Source of the DNA: Alphaproteobacteria bacterium
GTDB lineage: Bacteria; Pseudomonadota; Alphaproteobacteria; Rs-D84
Direction of reading: 5' to 3'
Assembly: GCA_017463185.1 (NCBI GenBank)
Contig: JAFTPS010000010.1
Location: 1 to 64,000, forward strand
Length of the DNA: 64,000 bases
The notes beneath the pieces were generated by a model that was not told the origin of the DNA, made no database searches, and was given only the letters and a program-made list of their open reading frames with translations. Shown in pieces: positions 27,620 to 57,461 of the stretch; the first letter of the stretch is position 1; every line of letters begins with the position of its first letter. The position numbers were made by a program, and so were the translations under genes.

Positions 27620-28057
27620 TTAATCTGAAACCATAGTTCCACACAGTTCAACGGCATAAAAACCATCGCCTTTTATTTCTGTGCCACAAAATAAACGCCA
27701 TGAACAGTTGCTATTCTCGTTATCACCCACAATTTCTTTCATCGTTTTGTAATCAATGGTGTTTACCAAACATTTTCCGGGTTTGATATACTGCTGGGGA
27801 TTTTCAATGGACAAAAACTTTGCTGTTTTTTCTTTGTTGTTATATATCTGCAAAATTTCGGGTGTTTCATCAACATAAGTTAAAAAGTCCCCGCGTTTCC
27901 CTTCGCTAATGATAATCGCGTTTTCATCCCAGTTCTGACGCTGTTGATTTATAAAAGTGACAAAGTCAGCATCGCCTTCTGGATGTGATGTAAACTCTTG
28001 ATCTTGACCACAAGCAGCCAATGTAATAATTGGCAAAATTAAAAATATTTTTTTCAT
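27620..28057 (-). CDS. Small lipoprotein, 145 aa
   Basis: Signal peptide with lipobox LAAC at Cys16, so outer- or inner-membrane lipoprotein; the residue after Cys is Gly, with no Asp retention signal at +2. The mature part is about 130 residues with four further Cys, three in the C-terminal third (CSWRLFCGTE, VELCGT). I do not recognise the family. AAGGAG precedes the ATG. Candidate attenuator A lies directly upstream, ending in a terminator just before the ribosome binding site. Confidence 0.75.
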   Translation of the reverse strand: MKKIFLILPIITLAACGQDQEFTSHPEGDADFVTFINQQRQNWDENAIIISEGKRGDFLTYVDETPEILQIYNNKEKTAKFLSIENPQQYIKPGKCLVNTIDYKTMKEIVGDNENSNCSWRLFCGTEIKGDGFYAVELCGTMVSD

Positions 28058-28075
28058 TTTATCTCCTTTTTTAAT

Positions 28076-28285
28076 AAAAAAACAAGACCACCAAAAACAG
28101 TGGTCGGGGAGTTCTCAAATCACTTTATCATTGATTCTGTGACCTTCATATATACGTCAACAGCTCACCAACCATAAGTCAGGGCTAACGCAAAAAACAC
28201 CGATAACATCAATTTAACGATGCTTTCGCACCGGATAAAGTGGGCTTGAGAAATGCCCCGAACCCAATCTCTCAGGTTCCCAGAA
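28076..28285 (-). promoter_or_regulatory. Candidate attenuator leader A
   Basis: Minus-strand leader of the lipoprotein gene. Close to its predicted 5' end is an 8-bp hairpin, GAACCTGA-gaga-TTGGGTTC (28259-28280). It is followed by GGGGC-...-AAGCCC. Strand 2 GGTTGGTGAGC (28163-28173) can pair with strand 3 CTCCCCGACC (28102-28111) with one mismatch. Strand 3 runs into the terminator GACCAC...GTGGTC (28086-28105), which has a T7 tail (28076-28085). The ribosome binding site follows. In place of the ACAACAGGG...CCCGAAAGC module of copies B, C and D it has the shorter GAC-gtatatatgaag-GTC. The promoter is not clear. Confidence 0.72.
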
Positions 28286-28332: not shown

Positions 28333-29010
28333 TTATGTGTGTTTTGCCAGTAAATCTTTCCATTTTTGTGGTGCGTTTACTTCATCAAAATAATCTTTCA
28401 AGAAATTGGCTATCGTTTTATGTTTCTTTTCGGCGTATTTACGACCGGGTTCAGTTAAACACATATCACGTAAATGAAATATTTTAACAAAAAAATGATT
28501 TACACAGGGGTCAACTTTTGATTTTCTGTATGTGTCAGCATCCATTTCTTCTGGAAAACAATCCGAATCAAAAAATGGCTCGTCACTGCCTGAACGATAT
28601 TCCATACAGCGCAACATACCAATCGCCCCAGATGCATCGCACATATCTGCATCGGATACAATTGCACCTTCAACTCCGTGTGCTTTGATTCCTTTTAGTC
28701 GTTTGCTGTATCCAATAGTTTTTACAATGTTGATGCATTTATCACAGAAATCGTCATCAAATCCAGAATTCGCCAATATGCGTCTGGTGTTGGTCATCAA
28801 GCGTTCTGATTCTTCGCCGAATAATTTATAGTCGTCGCAATCGTGCAACAGTGCCGCAGCGGCAACCAAATCACGATTGATGGACGGAATCTCGTCGCAA
28901 AATTTCATAGCTGTATTATAAACGCGAAAGACGTGTTTATCATCATGTCCATTAGAATTATCTTTAAGCAATTCAGAAACGGCTTTTTTTATATATTCAA
29001 TACCCGTCAT
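28333..29010 (-). CDS. HD-domain phosphohydrolase
   Basis: Start at 29010, where AAAAAGG lies 7 bases upstream; the open frame runs to 29094. About 225 residues with the HD metal-binding pattern: His in DDKHVFRVYNTA, His-Asp in ALLHDCDDYKLFG and Asp in VSDADMCDASG. Members hydrolyse nucleotides or phosphoesters in the cytosol. The substrate is unknown. A perfect 10-bp inverted repeat lies just upstream (29031-29052) and probably binds a regulator. A second HD protein is at 35208-35819. Confidence 0.82.
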   Translation of the reverse strand: MTGIEYIKKAVSELLKDNSNGHDDKHVFRVYNTAMKFCDEIPSINRDLVAAAALLHDCDDYKLFGEESERLMTNTRRILANSGFDDDFCDKCINIVKTIGYSKRLKGIKAHGVEGAIVSDADMCDASGAIGMLRCMEYRSGSDEPFFDSDCFPEEMDADTYRKSKVDPCVNHFFVKIFHLRDMCLTEPGRKYAEKKHKTIANFLKDYFDEVNAPQKWKDLLAKHT

Positions 29011-29534: not shown

Positions 29535-30554
29535 ATGACAAAAAGACAAGATTTTATATTACAATTTATAAAACAGCACCCAAATACCAACAGCGCTGCA
29601 ATCGTTGAATATATGGCAAATGCGTGGGCAGAAAAAAGCTCTCGCGCCACTGTTTTACGTGATATTGATGCACTGATATCTGGTGGAATGGTCGTAAAAT
29701 CTGGCTCGGCACGTGCAACGACGTATGCGCCCGCAATTGATATAGAATCTTACTTTGCAATTGACCCAGACAATCGCACATTGAAACACGAATACTTCAA
29801 TTTTGACATTTGGGACATGATGCACGATTTGTTTAGTGCCAAGGAATTATCCGAACTGGACATGCAAAATAAGACATACAGACAAAACAAAGCAGAATTA
29901 TCCCCAACGGAATTGAAGAAAGAAATTGAACGTCTGACAATTGAATTTGCGTGGAAATCGTCCAAAATAGAAGGTAATACATACACCCTGTTGGATACAG
30001 AACGCCTGATAAAGGATAAAACCGAAGCAGCAGGCAAAAAGAAAGACGAAGCCATAATGATTTTGAATCACAAGGCGGCGCTGGATTTTATTTTTCAGCA
30101 GCCGGATTTCTTTGAACAAATCACAATCGCCAAAATAGAACATATTCACAGATTACTGACAGGGGAACTTGAGATAGAAAACGGTATCCGCCAAAGACGT
30201 GTCAGAATCATTGGTACAAACTATCGCCCACTGGATAACAGACAGCAGATAATGGAAGCGTTGGAAAAAATGGTTGAACTGATAAATGCCTTTACTCATC
30301 CATTGGAAAAGGCACTGGCCGCAGTATTGCTGATTTCGTATATTCAACCGTTTGAAGATGGAAACAAGCGCACAGCACGTACAGTAGGCAATGCGTTATT
30401 GTTGGCCGCCGACTATTGTCCATTGTCCTATCGCAGTGCAGACGAGATAGAGTATAAGAAAGGCATGATATTATTTTACGAGCAGAACGATTGGTCGTAC
30501 TTCAAAACAATATTCACCGACCAGTTCCGTCAAGGAATAGAAAAATATTTCTGA
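29535..30554 (+). CDS. Fic-family protein with N-terminal winged helix
   Basis: 339 residues. Residues 1-70 form a helix-turn-helix of winged type (NSAAIVEYMANAW, then SRATVLRDIDALISGGMV). Residues 135-150 carry the class II inhibitory motif SSKIEG (Ser142 to Gly147). The Fic core motif at 271-282 reads QPFEDGNKRTAR, against the usual HPF.DGN.R..R, so the catalytic His is Gln271. The protein may therefore not transfer AMP, or may act by another chemistry. It most likely represses its own promoter through the symmetric sites at 29466-29534. Terminator at 30559. Confidence 0.85.
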   Translation: MTKRQDFILQFIKQHPNTNSAAIVEYMANAWAEKSSRATVLRDIDALISGGMVVKSGSARATTYAPAIDIESYFAIDPDNRTLKHEYFNFDIWDMMHDLFSAKELSELDMQNKTYRQNKAELSPTELKKEIERLTIEFAWKSSKIEGNTYTLLDTERLIKDKTEAAGKKKDEAIMILNHKAALDFIFQQPDFFEQITIAKIEHIHRLLTGELEIENGIRQRRVRIIGTNYRPLDNRQQIMEALEKMVELINAFTHPLEKALAAVLLISYIQPFEDGNKRTARTVGNALLLAADYCPLSYRSADEIEYKKGMILFYEQNDWSYFKTIFTDQFRQGIEKYF

Positions 30555-30558
30555 CATA

Positions 30559-30583
30559 AAAATCCCCCATCCAAGGGGGATTT
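30559..30583. terminator. Bidirectional terminator
   Basis: AAATCCCCC-atccaag-GGGGATTT hairpin between the convergent fic-like gene and the lipoprotein gene 30605-32137. Confidence 0.75.
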
Positions 30584-30604: not shown

Positions 30605-32137
30605 CTACTTCGCGGCCCCAAAAGCTACGTTCATACGTATTTCGCCTTCTGGAACAGTTTCAACATACTGTGTCACACCGTTGACCTCGTTTGGATTAGC
30701 GTTCACACCATAGTATGAAATTTCCAATTTACCATTTACTGTACTGTTTTCGTCATAACCGCCACCATTATAATTGCCGGTAATATAGTTATCTACAGTT
30801 TTTTCAGATGCGGCAACACCATCTACAAACACACGATAGTTGTTATCAACATTTTCCCCATTAGAAAAAGATATGCTGGCTGTGCTATCGCTTGTTTTTA
30901 CAATTTCTACATCATACCAATTATTTTCAGAAAAATTCATATTGATAGTTTCTGTACCATCTGCAAACACCAAGGTAGCATCTGCCCCCAAGGAAAGTTC
31001 ATCGCCAGAGTCGTCGCTTCCTGCCACCGCTCCAACGGCATATCCAGCAAATTCGTGACGACCACTAAGCTCTGACCTTGCTATCTTCTTGTCTGCATAA
31101 CCACCTGCAAATGGGGTGATAGAATTTTCCGTTCCCTGAACGGCGCCAGACGATAATTCAGATTCTATCAGGGCGATTTTCATTCCACCAAAATCAGAAT
31201 ATCTCAAACCGTATTCAGCCCCATAAGTTTGAACGGTGACAGTTCCTTCAAGTTTTCTATCCTTTAACACAGCCTCTTGAACCAATTCAAAAACCTTGTC
31301 TTCTTTGCGCGTAAAAGTTGTTGTGCTGTCTGGGTTGACACTAACACCTTCGCCATTATCAGACACATACGACACCATATCTGCCGCTATGATACTGCCA
31401 TCTTCCCCAAGTCCGAACGTCAAAACATCTAACGTACCTTCACCGTCATTTGCACTTGAAGCCAAGGTCATTTCTACACCACTCAGGTCAAATTCCTTGT
31501 ATTGCATATCTTCTTTGGTCTGCTCAAAATCGTCTTTCAAGTCACCACCAATAATACCTGTGATAAACCCTGCCAGACCTGCACAATCGTCAGAGTCTAA
31601 AAAGCTATCAAAATCCCCCGCGCTGCCGCCAATAAGTGTAAAGGCATCTTTCAGGTCATTGATAAATTTGTTGTATGCTTCTTCACCTTGTTTCTTGTAT
31701 TCATTCATTTTAGCCAACAAATCTTCGTCCGATTTATCAAACCATCCCATGTGATTTATCTTGCCCTTGGCCCATTCCCAACGTTTATCATTATCCATAC
31801 CATGACCTGTACGCAAAGAATATGTGGCGGCTGATGTTTCTTCGTCTTGGTATGTTTTGCCCAATGTCTGTTCAACCATATCAATCAATTCTGCACGATT
31901 ATCCAATGCAATGCCTGTCACAGATGCATTTGATGCCCGAACAGTATCGCTAATCGTTTCCGTAATCAATACTGGTGCTTCTATGGTTGGTACATCTGGG
32001 ACGATTGGCGTATCTGGGGTGTTTGGTGTTTCTGGGATACTTGGCACATCACCAATGCCGGCACCACCACCTGAACCGCCACTGCCACCACATGCGGCCA
32101 GTGCTAAAACAGATGTCAATAATACAAGTTTTTTCAT
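30605..32137 (-). CDS. Putative Slam-dependent surface lipoprotein 2
   Basis: 510 residues with lipobox LAAC at Cys16, followed by a Gly/Ser linker (GGSGGSGGGAGIG) and a Pro-rich spacer. The C-terminal 130 residues are beta-rich and end in ISYYGVNANPNEVNG...NVAFGAAK, which resembles the last strands of the TbpB-type eight-stranded barrel (FYG..A.E..G...FG) that Slam recognises. The central part (about 100-330) is partly helical and acidic, and I do not recognise it. AAAGGAGC precedes the ATG, 26 bases after the Slam gene. Likely displayed on the outer face of the outer membrane; ligand unknown. Confidence 0.75.
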   Translation of the reverse strand: MKKLVLLTSVLALAACGGSGGSGGGAGIGDVPSIPETPNTPDTPIVPDVPTIEAPVLITETISDTVRASNASVTGIALDNRAELIDMVEQTLGKTYQDEETSAATYSLRTGHGMDNDKRWEWAKGKINHMGWFDKSDEDLLAKMNEYKKQGEEAYNKFINDLKDAFTLIGGSAGDFDSFLDSDDCAGLAGFITGIIGGDLKDDFEQTKEDMQYKEFDLSGVEMTLASSANDGEGTLDVLTFGLGEDGSIIAADMVSYVSDNGEGVSVNPDSTTTFTRKEDKVFELVQEAVLKDRKLEGTVTVQTYGAEYGLRYSDFGGMKIALIESELSSGAVQGTENSITPFAGGYADKKIARSELSGRHEFAGYAVGAVAGSDDSGDELSLGADATLVFADGTETINMNFSENNWYDVEIVKTSDSTASISFSNGENVDNNYRVFVDGVAASEKTVDNYITGNYNGGGYDENSTVNGKLEISYYGVNANPNEVNGVTQYVETVPEGEIRMNVAFGAAK

Positions 32138-32163
32138 GTTTTGCTCCTTTTGTTATGTTGTTA

Positions 32164-33522
32164 TCAGAATCTTTGTTGCATGGTAAATTCAATCGCCGTC
32201 TTGTTATATTCACGTTGCCATATATTTGAATCCCGTTGTGTATAGCTGAATGTAATTGTCGGCACAAAGCCCCATATATCCAATTTGTTGTTTGATAGTG
32301 ACAGAGCATAACGATGTGTAAAGTCCCGCTCGGTTATTTCCTTGAATTGATTGTTATCCACCGTCCAACGCGCATCATCATACAGCGACCAATATACTGA
32401 CGGCTCAAAATATGCGTGAAATCCCCATGGCAATTCTGCACCCAACCCCACAGATAAACTTGGTTGCCAGTATGCGTATATTGGACTGGCGGTATCTTCG
32501 CGGGTAATACCGGCACGCAGATTCATATAAACACTTGCGCTAAATGAATATGTCAGGCGCATGTTTGCTGAGTATGTCTGACCGCTCAAAAAATCCCCAT
32601 ACAGGTCATATTCGTTATTCATGGCGCGCAGATATAATCCACCCGACAATCTGCGTGTAAAGTCATAATTTGTATCCAATCGTGCGCCCACAGACCAGTT
32701 GTATCTTTCCCATCCATACCAACGCCGCGCCGCGATACCTGCCAACCAAATATCCCCACGATTCCAAACAAAGCGTGGCCCCGTAGATGCACCGATATAC
32801 AGGTCATCAAATTCGTGTTTGTCGTATATATTGCTGTAAAGATTGATGTCTGATTTCCATCGCCACTGGTCAGACAATTTGAATTCATAAGACCCGCCCA
32901 ATGTCAGATTTGTCCCGATTGCAGATTCCGGTTCATTCAAATCACGACACATCAGCCCGAACATAGTCGCCACACATTCTTGACCGCCGGCGGCATTATT
33001 TACATTGTTATCTGGCGCGGCCCCAATATTGAACCATACATTCCAATTTTTGTTCTTGCGTACGATGTACCGATAATAATTCATAAGTCCGCGTGCATTT
33101 TCCGGCAAATCTTTCCCCGCCATGGCCAAACGCAGGTGATAGTCGGCACGTGACCATTGTTCGGTGTGTATATAACACGTTGCCAGTTCAAAGCGTATAC
33201 GCGCCAGGTTCGGTTGGTCATCCAGTATCTTGCGATATATCTTGATTGCGGATTCATAATCACCACGTTTTTGGGCAATCTGTGCCAGTAAAAACCAGCG
33301 TTCTATTTCCAGTGCCACATTATTCATTTTCGGTGTCTGGGTCAGGATTTGCAACGCATGGTCATAATCCCCATGGTCAACCATTGTTCCGGCCAGTTGC
33401 ATCGCCTGTGTCGTGGTCATGGTGATTTCTTTTGGGGTGTTTTTTGTTTTGGTATCAGGTTTTGCCCAGGCGACCCCAGGCAAAACCATAACCAACGCAA
33501 AGATTAAACAATACAGACGCAT
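32164..33522 (-). CDS. Surface lipoprotein assembly modifier (Slam, DUF560 / SlipAM)
   Basis: 452 residues. Signal peptide of 20 residues ending in AWA. Residues about 35-150 are TPR-like repeats (GDYDHALQILTQ, GDYESAIKIYRKIL, ARIRFELATCYIH). A linker NYYRYIVRKNKNWNVWF and the segment GAAPDNNVNNA match the start of the Slam barrel, and the remainder is a beta barrel with many alternating aromatic strands ending in a C-terminal Phe (TMQQRF). Slam moves lipoproteins such as TbpB and HpuA across the outer membrane (type XI secretion). It lies between two lipoprotein genes, with no gap after the first and 26 bases before the second. Confidence 0.85.
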   Translation of the reverse strand: MRLYCLIFALVMVLPGVAWAKPDTKTKNTPKEITMTTTQAMQLAGTMVDHGDYDHALQILTQTPKMNNVALEIERWFLLAQIAQKRGDYESAIKIYRKILDDQPNLARIRFELATCYIHTEQWSRADYHLRLAMAGKDLPENARGLMNYYRYIVRKNKNWNVWFNIGAAPDNNVNNAAGGQECVATMFGLMCRDLNEPESAIGTNLTLGGSYEFKLSDQWRWKSDINLYSNIYDKHEFDDLYIGASTGPRFVWNRGDIWLAGIAARRWYGWERYNWSVGARLDTNYDFTRRLSGGLYLRAMNNEYDLYGDFLSGQTYSANMRLTYSFSASVYMNLRAGITREDTASPIYAYWQPSLSVGLGAELPWGFHAYFEPSVYWSLYDDARWTVDNNQFKEITERDFTHRYALSLSNNKLDIWGFVPTITFSYTQRDSNIWQREYNKTAIEFTMQQRF

Positions 33523-34461
33523 TTACTGGGCCACTTTCCCACCAAACGTAGAATGGAAATGAACAGTATTGCCAATCGCACCTTCCAGGTCATACACCCC
33601 AAGTTCAGCAGTCGCTTCACTGGCTGTGGCATCTTCACCATAAAAATTCACCGAAACAGACGCGTAACCCATATCGTCCATAGAAATAGGTTCTGACACG
33701 TTCGCCAGTGCAAATGTATTATCTATGTCTACATTATCTGGATTGGAAAATGCAATATTCTGTCCTGTAGTATCTGTGGCACTATTATATCTAACTTTGT
33801 ACCATTTGTCTGCATCCGATTTTGTAAAATCCATTACCAATGTATACGCACCTGTTGTGCCATTGAAAACCAGATTTGCATCATCTGTATTTGTTATCAT
33901 AACATCCGAACCATCCGTAATGTCGGACCCAATCACAGCCACCGCGCTTCCTGTAAAAGAATTTGTACCGTTGACGGTTTGAATCTCTTTATCTGAATTT
34001 CCTGCCAAAAGAGGCGCCCATGTTGCTTCTGTTTCATATCCTGACACCATCGTTTTTACATACATCATACCAAAGTCGGCAAATTTCAGACCGGCACGTC
34101 TGCCATACAGTTGAACCGCACCGTCTTCTAATACTCCTTTATTTTCGCCATCAGGATATTCTATACTTGAAATCTTGCCCGTTTCTGGAACAACATGATA
34201 TGTGACACCGTTTGTTTCGCCTTCTGGCGTTTCCCAAGTTTCTGCTAATGCAATAATTTGTCCTTTGTCATTTGTGCTTACAACATAGTCCCCGTCAAAG
34301 GCAACGTTTTCTACTGCGGTAGCTCCACCGATTTCGGGTATGATTGGTGTAGTGTTTCCTGTAGGTGCCCCGCCAATACCGGCACCACCACCCGAACCGC
34401 CACTGCCACCACCACATGCAGTCAATGCTAAAATAGATGTCAAAATCGCAAGTTTTTTCAT
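33523..34461 (-). CDS. Putative Slam-dependent surface lipoprotein 1
   Basis: 312 residues with lipobox LTAC at Cys16 and a long Gly/Ser linker (GGGSGGSGGGAGIGG). The mature part is all beta. The last 60 residues, with SVSVNFYGEDATASEATAEL and HFHSTFGGKVAQ, match the FYG..A.E..G...FGG end of TbpB-type barrels. First gene of the Slam operon, preceded by candidate attenuator B and a good promoter. GGGAG lies before the ATG. It is probably a surface binding protein; ligand unknown. No TonB-dependent receptor lies beside it, unlike tbp or hpu loci. Confidence 0.75.
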   Translation of the reverse strand: MKKLAILTSILALTACGGGSGGSGGGAGIGGAPTGNTTPIIPEIGGATAVENVAFDGDYVVSTNDKGQIIALAETWETPEGETNGVTYHVVPETGKISSIEYPDGENKGVLEDGAVQLYGRRAGLKFADFGMMYVKTMVSGYETEATWAPLLAGNSDKEIQTVNGTNSFTGSAVAVIGSDITDGSDVMITNTDDANLVFNGTTGAYTLVMDFTKSDADKWYKVRYNSATDTTGQNIAFSNPDNVDIDNTFALANVSEPISMDDMGYASVSVNFYGEDATASEATAELGVYDLEGAIGNTVHFHSTFGGKVAQ

Positions 34462-34478
34462 ATATAACTCCCATGTAT

Positions 34479-34749
34479 AAAATTAGACCGCCATGGGATA
34501 TCAGGCGGTCGGGGAGTTCACAAATCATTCTGTTATTGATTCTGCTGCTTTCGGGCTGCCCCTGTTGTATAGCAAACAGCTCCCCGACTTATGCAAGTCA
34601 GGGATAAATAACGACACAAAACCACAGGAATGACATCGGATAACGATGCCATTAGCATTTTGCACCGAACAGAATAGGCTTGTGACAGCCCCGAACCCAT
34701 ATCCCTATGGATTCATTCATAGTGTATCAATTAGATTAATCAATTTCAA
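34479..34749 (-). promoter_or_regulatory. Candidate attenuator leader B with promoter
   Basis: Promoter on the minus strand: TTGAAA (34744-34749), N17, TACACT (34721-34726). Predicted start about 34714, exactly at the hairpin GAATCCAT-agggat-ATGGGTTC. Next is GGGGCTGTCACAAGCC. Strand 1 CCCTGACTT (34595-34603), strand 2 AAGTCGGGGAGC (34579-34590), strand 3 CTCCCCGACC (34507-34516). Strand 2 can pair with either. Terminator GACCGCC...GGCGGTC plus TAATTTT (34479-34510) overlaps strand 3 and ends just before the GGGAG ribosome binding site. The hairpin loop AGGGATA (34700-34706) is also complementary to TATCCCT (34600-34606), a possible pseudoknot overlapping strand 1. Confidence 0.78.
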
Positions 34750-34787: not shown

Positions 34788-35039
34788 CTAATAAATAAAA
34801 ATTTTTTTATTTTTTTGTGCTGTGCCAATATTGTGCTCTGCATTCAGTATCTGCCTAACTAAATATCGTGCCAAGTCGGGGTCGCTGGTGTGTAGTGAGC
34901 GCAGGTATCTTTTTCCCTTTACCATGCGGCGCAGATAAAAAATTCCATTGCGCACACACAGGTTTTTTGCATAAGTGGATGCCAATTCATTTGATGTAAA
35001 ATTGGTATCAAAATCAGATAAAAAAAGAGCTGTCTTCAT
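34788..35039 (-). CDS. N-terminal fragment of a tyrosine recombinase (probable)
   Basis: 83 residues. The segment LCVRNGIFYLRRMVKGKRYL, then SLHTSDPDLARYLVRQIL, resembles the N-terminal arm of phage-type integrases, with a strand pair and the L.T.d...A..... helix. The core-binding and catalytic domains are absent. It lies 47 bp from tRNA-Gln, a common integration target, which supports a relic of an integrated element. It might instead be an intact small DNA-binding protein. Confidence 0.55.
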   Translation of the reverse strand: MKTALFLSDFDTNFTSNELASTYAKNLCVRNGIFYLRRMVKGKRYLRSLHTSDPDLARYLVRQILNAEHNIGTAQKNKKIFIY

Positions 35040-35085
35040 TGGTTTTCTGCTAAAAACCTAGAATTCAGCCCCGAACATAAATATG

Positions 35086-35159
35086 TGGTTGGGGCGCACG
35101 GATTCGAACCATGATAAAGAGAACCAAAATCTCTTGTCCTACCATTAGACGACACCCCA
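35086..35159 (-). tRNA. tRNA-Gln (TTG)
   Basis: 74 bases on the minus strand with encoded CCA. Acceptor TGGGGTG pairs with CGCCCCA, the D-arm contains TCTAATGGTAGGA, the anticodon loop is TTTTGGT (anticodon TTG), and the T-arm is ATGG-TTCGAAT-CCGT. An integrase-like fragment lies next to its 3' end. Confidence 0.95.
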
Positions 35160-35207: not shown

Positions 35208-35819
35208 TTATCGCACTTTATTACTGTATACGGTTGTATTTTGTATCCGGTCCTGTTCACGGTCAAATTCAATTTGTGCGCGTGTCAGGATATTGTTCTT
35301 TATCAAAAAATCATCTTGGGCTGCGATATATTGCGCCTGTCGTGGTGGCGTCATTCCCGCGATATAGCGACCAATATTTGTTGAAAACAGGTGTGGCAAA
35401 TATTCCATTTCCCACGACAAACGTATTCTGTCTGCATCCCACAGACAGGCCGAAACGGTATCTGGTGCGTGGCGACCAGTTGTATGATGTTCTATGGCGT
35501 ACAGAATCTTTTGTACTGTTGTGGTCGATAAATTGGCGTAATTCTTTGCCAAAAATTCGCGTCCGATTGGTACGGCGCGTGGACCGTGTTCCGTACACCA
35601 TGCGTCATTTGTACGCGCACAATCGTGCAGGCCCGCCGCCAACAGTACCGGTAATGGGTCTGTGTTTATTCCATCGCTCAAATCCAGACCAAACATTGCC
35701 ACCTGATTCGTATGCGACAGGCCGTGATACCCATATCTGGATTGATTTGTTATTTCTGCGATTTGAGGCAAGATTTGATTAAAATACAATTTTGCATAAT
35801 AAACTTTATCTTTATTCAT
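35208..35819 (-). CDS. HD-domain protein
   Basis: Start at 35819 behind AAGGAAAG; the open frame runs to 35861. About 203 residues with HD-type ligands: His in YGYHGLSHTNQV, His-Asp in AAGLHDCARTND, a His pair in AIEHHTTGRH and Asp in ACLWDADRIRL. It is likely a cytosolic metal-dependent phosphohydrolase acting on nucleotides or similar compounds. Distinct from the HD protein at 28333-29010. Located between tRNA-Gln and candidate attenuator C. Confidence 0.82.
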   Translation of the reverse strand: MNKDKVYYAKLYFNQILPQIAEITNQSRYGYHGLSHTNQVAMFGLDLSDGINTDPLPVLLAAGLHDCARTNDAWCTEHGPRAVPIGREFLAKNYANLSTTTVQKILYAIEHHTTGRHAPDTVSACLWDADRIRLSWEMEYLPHLFSTNIGRYIAGMTPPRQAQYIAAQDDFLIKNNILTRAQIEFDREQDRIQNTTVYSNKVR

Positions 35820-35892: not shown

Positions 35893-36180
35893 TTGATTTC
35901 CGGGGATTTTAATAGTAAAATGCATTTGAATTCACAGGGATAGTGAGTTCGGGCTGTCGTAAGCCTTACAGTAAAGCGGTACGAAAAAACGTACTGAATC
36001 CGCACGAATATAAGATGCGGTGCATTTTTGCACCTTTTCTTATGTCGCACCCCGCACTGCCTGTTTGGTCGGGGGGCCGCCTGCATATACAACAGGGTTC
36101 TTCCCGAAAGCAGTGCGGAATCATTCTTTACTGTGATTTACGAACCTCCCGACCGCCAAACCTGTGGCGGTTTAATTTTG
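35893..36180 (+). promoter_or_regulatory. Candidate attenuator leader C with promoter
   Basis: Promoter TTGATT (35893-35898), N17, TAAAAT (35916-35921). Predicted start about 35928, exactly at the hairpin GAATTCAC-agggata-GTGAGTTC (35928-35950), followed by GGGCTGTCGTAAGCC. Strand 2 GGTCGGGGGG (36067-36076) pairs without mismatch to strand 3 CCTCCCGACC (36145-36154); upstream CCCCG (36050-36054) can compete. Between them lie ATATACAACAGGG and CCCGAAAGCAG. Terminator GACCGCC...GGCGGT plus TTAATTTTG ends at 36180, right before GGGGGCG and the ATG. The only plus-strand member of the four close copies. Confidence 0.78.
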
Positions 36181-36196
36181 TTTTATGGGGGCGAAA

Positions 36197-49080: not shown

Positions 49081-49096
49081 TTCCACTCCAATTATA

Positions 49097-49344
49097 AAAT
49101 TAAACCGCCGTGGAATTTGGCGGTCGGGGAGTTGGTAAATCATTATCGTACTGATTCTGTTGCTTTCGGGTCAGCCCTGTTGTATAGCGAACAGCCCCCC
49201 GACTGCTTTTACAGTCAGGGATAAATAACGATGCAAAACCACAGGAACATTATCGGATTTACGACGCGCCTTTATTTTGCACCGACGATAACAGGCTTAC
49301 CACAGCCCCGAATCCAATTCCCATCAGATTCAATTTGAATTCTA
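49097..49344 (-). promoter_or_regulatory. Candidate attenuator leader D
   Basis: Weak promoter on the minus strand with -10 TAGAAT (49339-49344). The predicted start is near the hairpin GAATCTGA-tgggaa-TTGGATTC (49310-49331), followed by GGGGCTGTGGTAAGCC. Strand 1 CCCTGACTG (49212-49220), strand 2 CAGTCGGGGGGC (49194-49205), strand 3 CTCCCCGACC (49122-49131). The module GCTATACAACAGGGC...CCCGAAAGC lies between strands 2 and 3. Terminator ACCGCC...GGCGGT plus TTAATTTT (49097-49124) overlaps strand 3. The stretch CCTGTGGTTTTG...TCGTTATTTATCCC is nearly identical to copy B. Confidence 0.78.
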
Positions 49345-57179: not shown

Positions 57180-57210
57180 TCTTTGACCTCCTTGATTTTT
57201 TTCGCGAATG

Positions 57211-57461
57211 AAAAAACCACCCAAAACATTCGAGTGGTCAGGAGGTTGATAGCAATCGTTAGAATTGTGTGCTTATTCAGTATATTCGCAACCCTCCTGA
57301 CCCAATGGGGACAGGAGTTTGTTTTTCGTCGTAATAATAAAAAAGACGCATCTGCTGCGTCATTGAGTATATATTCCGACGCTAACGAGCGGGCTATCAC
57401 ACCCCATCGTCAGAATTTCTGACGACATGCAGATTATACCCGATAAAATGGCGTGTTGCAA
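57211..57461 (-). promoter_or_regulatory. Candidate attenuator leader F, divergent copy, with promoter
   Basis: Promoter TTGCAA (57456-57461), N17, TATAAT (57433-57438), start about 57426, followed by the hairpin CGTCAGAA-a-TTCTGACG, then GGGGTGTGATAGCCC. A first terminator, GACGCA-gcaga-TGCGTC plus T6, lies at 57330-57361. Strand 1 is CTCCTG (57312-57317), strand 2 GGGTCAGGAGGGTT (57290-57303), strand 3 AACCTCCTGACCAC (57233-57246). Strand 3 enters the second terminator ACCACTC...GGGTGGT plus T6 (57211-57238), just before the ribosome binding site. Confidence 0.75.

Follow-up and report, generated by a model that had tools for sequence, protein, structure and literature searches.

What does a type XI secretion system (T11SS) place on the surface of a bacterium whose order appears to lack TonB-dependent receptors, and what controls its genes? 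The question is raised by a three-gene locus in a 64,000-nt stretch of DNA (the window) from a member of the Alphaproteobacteria, GTDB order Rs-D84 (GenBank assembly GCA_017463185.1, contig JAFTPS010000010.1, positions 1 to 64,000, forward strand); the source genome measures 1.04 Mb and is 94% complete. An earlier note, made from the sequence alone, had read the locus as an operon for a Slam, the T11SS outer membrane protein, with two candidate substrate lipoproteins. That reading is supported here, with all three genes found on the minus strand (Table 1). The note's probable alphaproteobacterium agrees with the nearest named records, which are metagenome-assembled genomes (MAGs) of uncultured rumen or gut Alphaproteobacteria. 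Its naming of Neisseria and relatives as the best-known carriers of Slam is fair; Slams of Alphaproteobacteria were already known (PMC5449769, PMC8406197).

Taken as a whole, the locus is in our view (probability about 0.8) a functional operon for type XI (Slam) secretion, with surface cargo, leader-gated expression and a non-TbpA role. Protein families, fold similarity, conserved adjacency, receptor absence by two models and a covarying leader structure were computed; from these we infer that the cargo is secreted and surface-exposed, what class of ligand it has and that the leader switches. The leader RNA is the more surprising part.

The Slam gene and its relatives

The middle gene product is, by family match, a Slam. 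It scores 118.4 bits with PF04575 (DUF560/SlipAM; cut-off 22, E = 5.8e-34, positions 1-288 of 288; 119.8 bits in the whole-genome scan) and 37.3 bits with PF24575 (TPR_Slam), just above the cut-off of 35.2, and generic tetratricopeptide repeat (TPR) models match too. The gene is intact and full length and its product ends in QRF, in keeping with the TPR, DUF560 barrel and C-terminal Phe recognised earlier. Because the gaps are 0 nt (lipoprotein 1 to Slam) and 26 nt (Slam to lipoprotein 2) and a terminator-like hairpin follows lipoprotein 2, a single operon, already proposed from order and spacing, is plausible.

Slam is patchy in the order, occurring in 28 of 53 genomes. A cargo-like barrel lipoprotein gene adjoins it on the same strand in 23 of the 40 loci fetched, mostly immediately upstream and usually at 0-125 nt; the cargo profile was trained on 22 of those 23 proteins, the adjacency having first been found by a lipobox scan. 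The source genome has two Slams and four cargo-like lipoproteins, including the two of the window. Its second Slam has its own cargo lipoprotein gene (G000:C1:68900-69745, L051), and one cargo-like gene is an orphan adjoining a DNA ligase-like gene (G000:C6:48342-48761, L229). In one relative (L065:5932-7320) the Slam gene is broken by a stop into 387 and 74 aa, with no cargo recognised beside it. Several relatives have their Slam locus near tRNA genes, repeatedly tRNA-Lys(CTT) (L050, L053, L057, L059, L066-L068, L070), and the genes downstream of such tRNA-Lys(CTT) loci are conserved.

Patchiness, the stop-broken gene and the orphan would suit ordinary lipoproteins facing the periplasm beside a decayed or re-purposed DUF560 barrel, with no surface display. 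The window Slam is undamaged, however, and both the adjacency and the C-terminal cargo domain are conserved over many species; we hold this explanation to be improbable, at roughly one chance in ten.

The cargo lipoproteins

Both lipoproteins open with a lipoprotein signal peptide and a linker rich in Gly and Ser. Lipoprotein 1 carries MKKLAILTSILALTAC followed by GGGSGGSGGG (lipobox LALTAC, then G); the lipobox of lipoprotein 2 ends in LALAAC, with GGSGGSGGG next. An AlphaFold2 model of lipoprotein 1, built on an alignment of eight relatives that held no TbpB-group sequences, consists mostly of beta strands (mean predicted local distance difference test, pLDDT, 57; predicted template modelling score, pTM, 0.56). 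Searched against the PDB with Foldseek, it returned TbpB as its top three hits (E 1.2e-4 to 8e-4; best 4o4x). VIA-align placed TbpB 3pqs first (Z 14.5, root-mean-square deviation 3.6 A over 210 residues) and filled rows 1-47 entirely with TbpB, LbpB, HpuA, NHBA, fHbp, PmSLP or hemophilins, unrelated folds beginning at Z 7.6. All of these proteins are known Slam substrates. Since a moderate model retrieves exactly this group although their sequences were not in its alignment, support for the fold is strong, and lipoprotein 1 is predicted to be a TbpB-type lobe with a handle and an 8-stranded barrel.

Lipoprotein 2 shares 37% identity with lipoprotein 1 over 139 aa (E 9e-14), and its C-terminal domain scores 158 bits with the cargo profile (A6). 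This domain can be aligned over 14 cargo proteins, with the motifs YYG-x-PxEA and FGxK that the earlier note had picked out; the homology supports the same C-terminal domain in both lipoproteins. The earlier proposal of a TbpB-like barrel in each thus stands for lipoprotein 1 by predicted structure and for lipoprotein 2 by C-terminal sequence homology only. Neither outcome that the note named as refuting, a missing DUF560 hit or predicted structures lacking the barrel, arose for lipoprotein 1. Neither Pfam nor NCBIfam models match the domain, and a sequence-profile search against solved structures gave nothing relevant. By these searches the family is unrecognised by current domain models, and because both model sets fail on it, domain-based cargo surveys would miss it.

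In the mechanism that we propose, both lipoproteins would be exported by Sec and lipidated, and the Slam encoded between them would recognise their C-terminal barrels and carry them through the outer membrane. They would then be anchored at the cell surface with the handle and N-terminal parts outward.

TonB-dependent receptors

Neither the model for the Plug (PF07715) nor that for the receptor barrel (PF00593) matched in any of the order's 53 genomes, the source genome included, while controls in E. coli, Caulobacter and other Alphaproteobacteria were positive; these genomes are MAGs, for any one of which absence is no proof, yet 53 of 53 is hard to ascribe to gaps. By these two models, the order appears to lack TonB-dependent receptors. 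The earlier observation that none lies beside the Slam gene was true and understated. Elsewhere, published surveys report a TonB receptor for 120 of the 185 Slam clusters (PMC5449769) and rank TonB with the most frequent neighbours of T11SS of cluster 1 (PMC12282271).

Because no such receptors were found in the order, a TbpA-style metal hand-over by the lipoproteins seems very unlikely, and no metal would pass to a TbpA-like partner; this adds weight to the earlier idea that what they bind may be something other than metal carriers. By analogy with fHbp, NHBA, PmSLP and NilC, the lipoproteins more probably bind molecules of the host, of mucus or of neighbours, in adhesion or in an immune- or complement-type role.

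The lipoproteins might still serve metal or haem uptake as TbpB and HpuA do, by a route that does not need TonB or with receptors of a family that PF07715 and PF00593 do not cover. The closest folds (TbpB, LbpB, HpuA, hemophilins), the metal or haem roles of most known cluster-1 cargo (PMC12282271) and the receptors in the surveyed Slam clusters all point that way. Against it stand the empty receptor searches and the examples of fHbp, NHBA and PmSLP, which have the same fold without such a role, and we consider uptake unlikely, only slightly more probable than the absence of surface display. If the preferred non-TbpA role is right, a TbpB-shaped Slam cargo in an order apparently without TonB receptors would mean that the metal-uptake role of this fold is separable from its secretion route.

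The leader RNA

Upstream of lipoprotein 1, RF02221 (Rfam sRNA-Xcc1) matches at 38.3 bits against a gathering score of 53, and it matches again at two further window sites; the best source-genome copy reaches 47.3 bits, also below gathering. An alignment built from sixteen source-genome copies gives a three-way-junction RNA with a 10-bp P1, a P2 with the internal loop AUACAACA/AAAG, P2b, P3 and a terminator-like hairpin directly after P1. The unpaired AUACAA and AAAG are conserved and all helices show compensatory changes. The structure was set by hand (model R2); an RNAalifold consensus (R1) put P1 in the wrong place and was dropped. R2 scores the window leader, a training member, at 97.6 bits (E 1.2e-17).

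In an alignment not fitted to the structure, both partners vary in 15 of 28 pairs; the shuffles give 7.3, and none of 500 reaches the observed count. In a fitted alignment of 50 distinct copies, which leans towards the structure, this holds for 26 of 27 pairs, and the terminator helix covaries too. No shuffle of the window leader folds as well as the leader itself (z -3.5); the leader's terminator region (34476-34516) folds at -14.9 kcal/mol (z -4.8). The candidate attenuator of the earlier note is therefore real as a structured element.

Upstream lies a further hairpin, P0, with the stem CCCUGACUU:AAGUCGGGG; the second strand of this stem doubles as the 5' strand of P1, so P0 and P1 are mutually exclusive. 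As long as P0 persists, the downstream GACCGCC:GGCGGUC terminator would form in full; when CUCCCCGAC, the 3' strand, pairs with the 5' strand to make P1, the terminator would lose three pairs. Across copies P0 exceeds shuffles modestly (8 of 8 pairs in 14 of 50 copies, 3 expected), and as a general feature of the leader it was not upheld.

At E<1e-3, R2 finds 52 copies in the source genome, 25 of them at 68 bits or more and mostly full-length, the rest forming a shorter, weaker class. Copies occur in 49 of 59 related genomes and, more sparsely, in 30 of 385 genomes of other Alphaproteobacteria. Their orientation is fixed, a terminator and a Shine-Dalgarno sequence (SD) stand at the end, and the start codon follows the reference point by 26-48 nt in 40 of 47 copies. 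A simple, home-made rule recognises a signal-peptide-like N-terminus in 38 of the 47 downstream genes that could be scored and in 19 of the 57 genes of the window (Fisher p 1.4e-6; background rates were taken from the window and related loci). Judged mostly by eye, glycosyltransferases and a helix-turn-helix regulator are among the other downstream products; other families of the class add proteins resembling DNA methyltransferases and adhesins. The same leader precedes the Slam operons of some relatives (L032, L034, L045, L066).

Because one leader serves about 50 genes, mostly for exported proteins, the Slam operon would be part of a surface regulon, and the leader a ready signature of exported-protein regulons in uncultured gut bacteria. 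A literature search found no description of such a leader, nor of its presence in a regulon-scale number of copies in a genome of 1 Mb.

High copy number, and the occurrence of sRNA-Xcc1 in integron cassettes, there upstream of symE (PMC12444791), might instead indicate a mobile or recombinogenic repeat (attC- or REP-like) without regulatory role. The fixed orientation and narrow start-codon distance, the terminator and SD, the compensatory changes in all helices and the conserved unpaired segments argue against a mere repeat, which we rate the least probable of the alternatives.

Relation to sRNA-Xcc1 and C4 RNA

The window leader is, on its covariance-model matches, a distant relative of sRNA-Xcc1, described as an 88-nt small RNA (PMC2996969). 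RF02221 exceeds its threshold in 39 of 398 genomes of the phylum Pseudomonadota, and the best 30 copies (L196-L225) lie mostly 20-50 nt ahead of an SD and ATG. Nine of ten following genes tested match SymE, Bro-N (four, one just under cut-off), KilA-N, P22_AR_N or Rha (two); by these matches, copies elsewhere precede SymE and phage antirepressor-type genes. Their P3 loop pairs with the ribosome-binding site (RBS) of the copy's own gene far better than with those of other copies (0 of 2000 permutations), at least 6 perfect pairs being found in 65% of own and 22% of other combinations. When the whole element is scanned, the signal peaks at the P3 loop (z -9.3, 26 copies). Given the position before SymE and antirepressor-type genes and the loop complementary to the gene's own RBS, sRNA-Xcc1 is probably a cis leader and not a trans-acting small RNA, its short form being processed or terminated.

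Phage C4 RNA controls antirepressor synthesis through loop-RBS pairing (PMC12197685, PMC5320573), and an expanded C4 family is reported from Acinetobacter (PMC5320573). The window leader might likewise act by antisense pairing and not by attenuation, as the 26 RF02221 copies and single source-genome copies with perfect matches of at least 11 nt (L089) would suggest. Over all source-genome copies, however, the pairing is not significant (z about -1.3 to -1.7), and these copies carry the covarying terminator helix. We put antisense action at about one chance in four, the strongest of the alternatives, and keep attenuation as the preferred mode. The C4 model RF01695 gave no match on these leaders at E up to 1-3; with terminators in place of significant loop-RBS pairing, mechanistic kinship with C4-type control stays an analogy.

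We offer tentatively, at somewhat less than even odds, a wider proposal: that, in a streamlined lineage of gut Alphaproteobacteria, an sRNA-Xcc1/C4-like leader of phage-antirepressor type was co-opted and multiplied about fifty-fold as a cis switch for exported and surface proteins, the Slam operon being one member, and that the whole Rfam family is cis-acting. A virulence-linked family of 'trans-acting sRNA' would then probably consist of cis leaders that precede phage-type and surface genes.

Features and surroundings

Table 1. Positions of the operon, its leader and other features in the window
Feature	Position	Strand	Remarks
Lipoprotein 1	33523-34461	minus	312 aa; lipobox and Gly/Ser linker
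Slam / type XI outer membrane protein	32164-33522	minus	452 aa; TPR and DUF560 barrel, C-terminal Phe
Lipoprotein 2	30605-32137	minus	510 aa; lipobox; longer, partly helical N-terminal part
Leader RNA (P1/P2/P2b/P3 junction and terminator)	34465-34591	minus	model R2, RF02221, covariation
P0 hairpin	34581-34604	minus	10-pair stem; folded
Terminator-like hairpin of leader	34486-34510	minus	GACCGCC...GGCGGUC, then UAAUUUUAUA; 3 nt common to P1
Bidirectional terminator-like hairpin, operon end	30563-30580	both	3' of lipoprotein 2
Leader copy	36065-36193	plus	precedes 813-aa open reading frame without Pfam match
Leader copy	49082-49206	minus	precedes secreted 275-aa protein
Leader copy	28065-28175	minus	precedes small lipoprotein, 27620-28057
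Leader copy	57194-57304	minus	precedes exported protein
HD-domain protein	28333-29007	minus
HD-domain protein	35208-35816	minus
Fic-domain protein	29535-30554	plus
tRNA-Gln, then 83-aa fragment	34788-35159	minus	weak DUF6538 match; possible integrase remnant

The operon is flanked by genes for a Fic-domain protein and two HD-domain proteins. The DUF6538-like fragment upstream scores 19 bits, below cut-off. A genomic island was considered and dropped: the 3' end of the tRNA-Gln gene has no second copy of at least 10 nt in the window, and the open reading frame at the equivalent place in a relative (L034) is not an integrase.

Weighing the reading

Several observations weigh against a leader-gated secretion operon. 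AlphaFold2 gave a moderately confident model for lipoprotein 1 and a poor one for lipoprotein 2 (pLDDT 40). The model search proposed in the earlier note succeeded strongly for PF04575 and failed for the barrel model TbpB_B_D (PF01298), which had no sequence match in the 14 cargo-family members; this domain occurs in many, not all, known Slam cargo. About 15 Slam loci of relatives, some at contig ends, have no recognisable cargo nearby, and most other Slam operons, including the second of the source genome, lack the leader. With an overlap of just 3 nt between P1 and the terminator, switching may be weak, and the signal-peptide rule is home-made.

Comparison with known systems

The leader shares with RF02221 the P1-P2-P3 junction, the conserved AUACAA and GAAAG-type segments and the place just before a gene; it differs in scoring below gathering, in having a terminator, in preceding exported-protein genes and in its copy number of about 50. 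The C4 RNA of phages P1 and P7 (RF01695) resembles sRNA-Xcc1-type RNA in its three helices, antirepressor genes and loop-RBS pairing, whereas the leaders lack an RF01695 match, are kin by analogy, and show significant pairing only in RF02221 copies outside the source genome.

Like Neisseria Slam1-TbpB, Pasteurella PmSLP and Xenorhabdus NilB-NilC, the locus combines a TPR and DUF560 protein with an adjacent C-terminal-barrel lipoprotein in operon-like order. It differs from them in cargo that Pfam and NCBIfam do not recognise, the single TbpB-like lobe of lipoprotein 1, the lack of TonB receptors found in the order and the RNA leader in front. The T11SS of marine Alphaproteobacteria (cluster 3, Rhodobacteraceae; PMC12282271) share the class and the rarity of TonB genes beside them; there barrel cargo is rare and DUF1194 neighbours occur, whereas here barrel cargo is the rule. 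The locus adds a cargo family invisible to current domain models.

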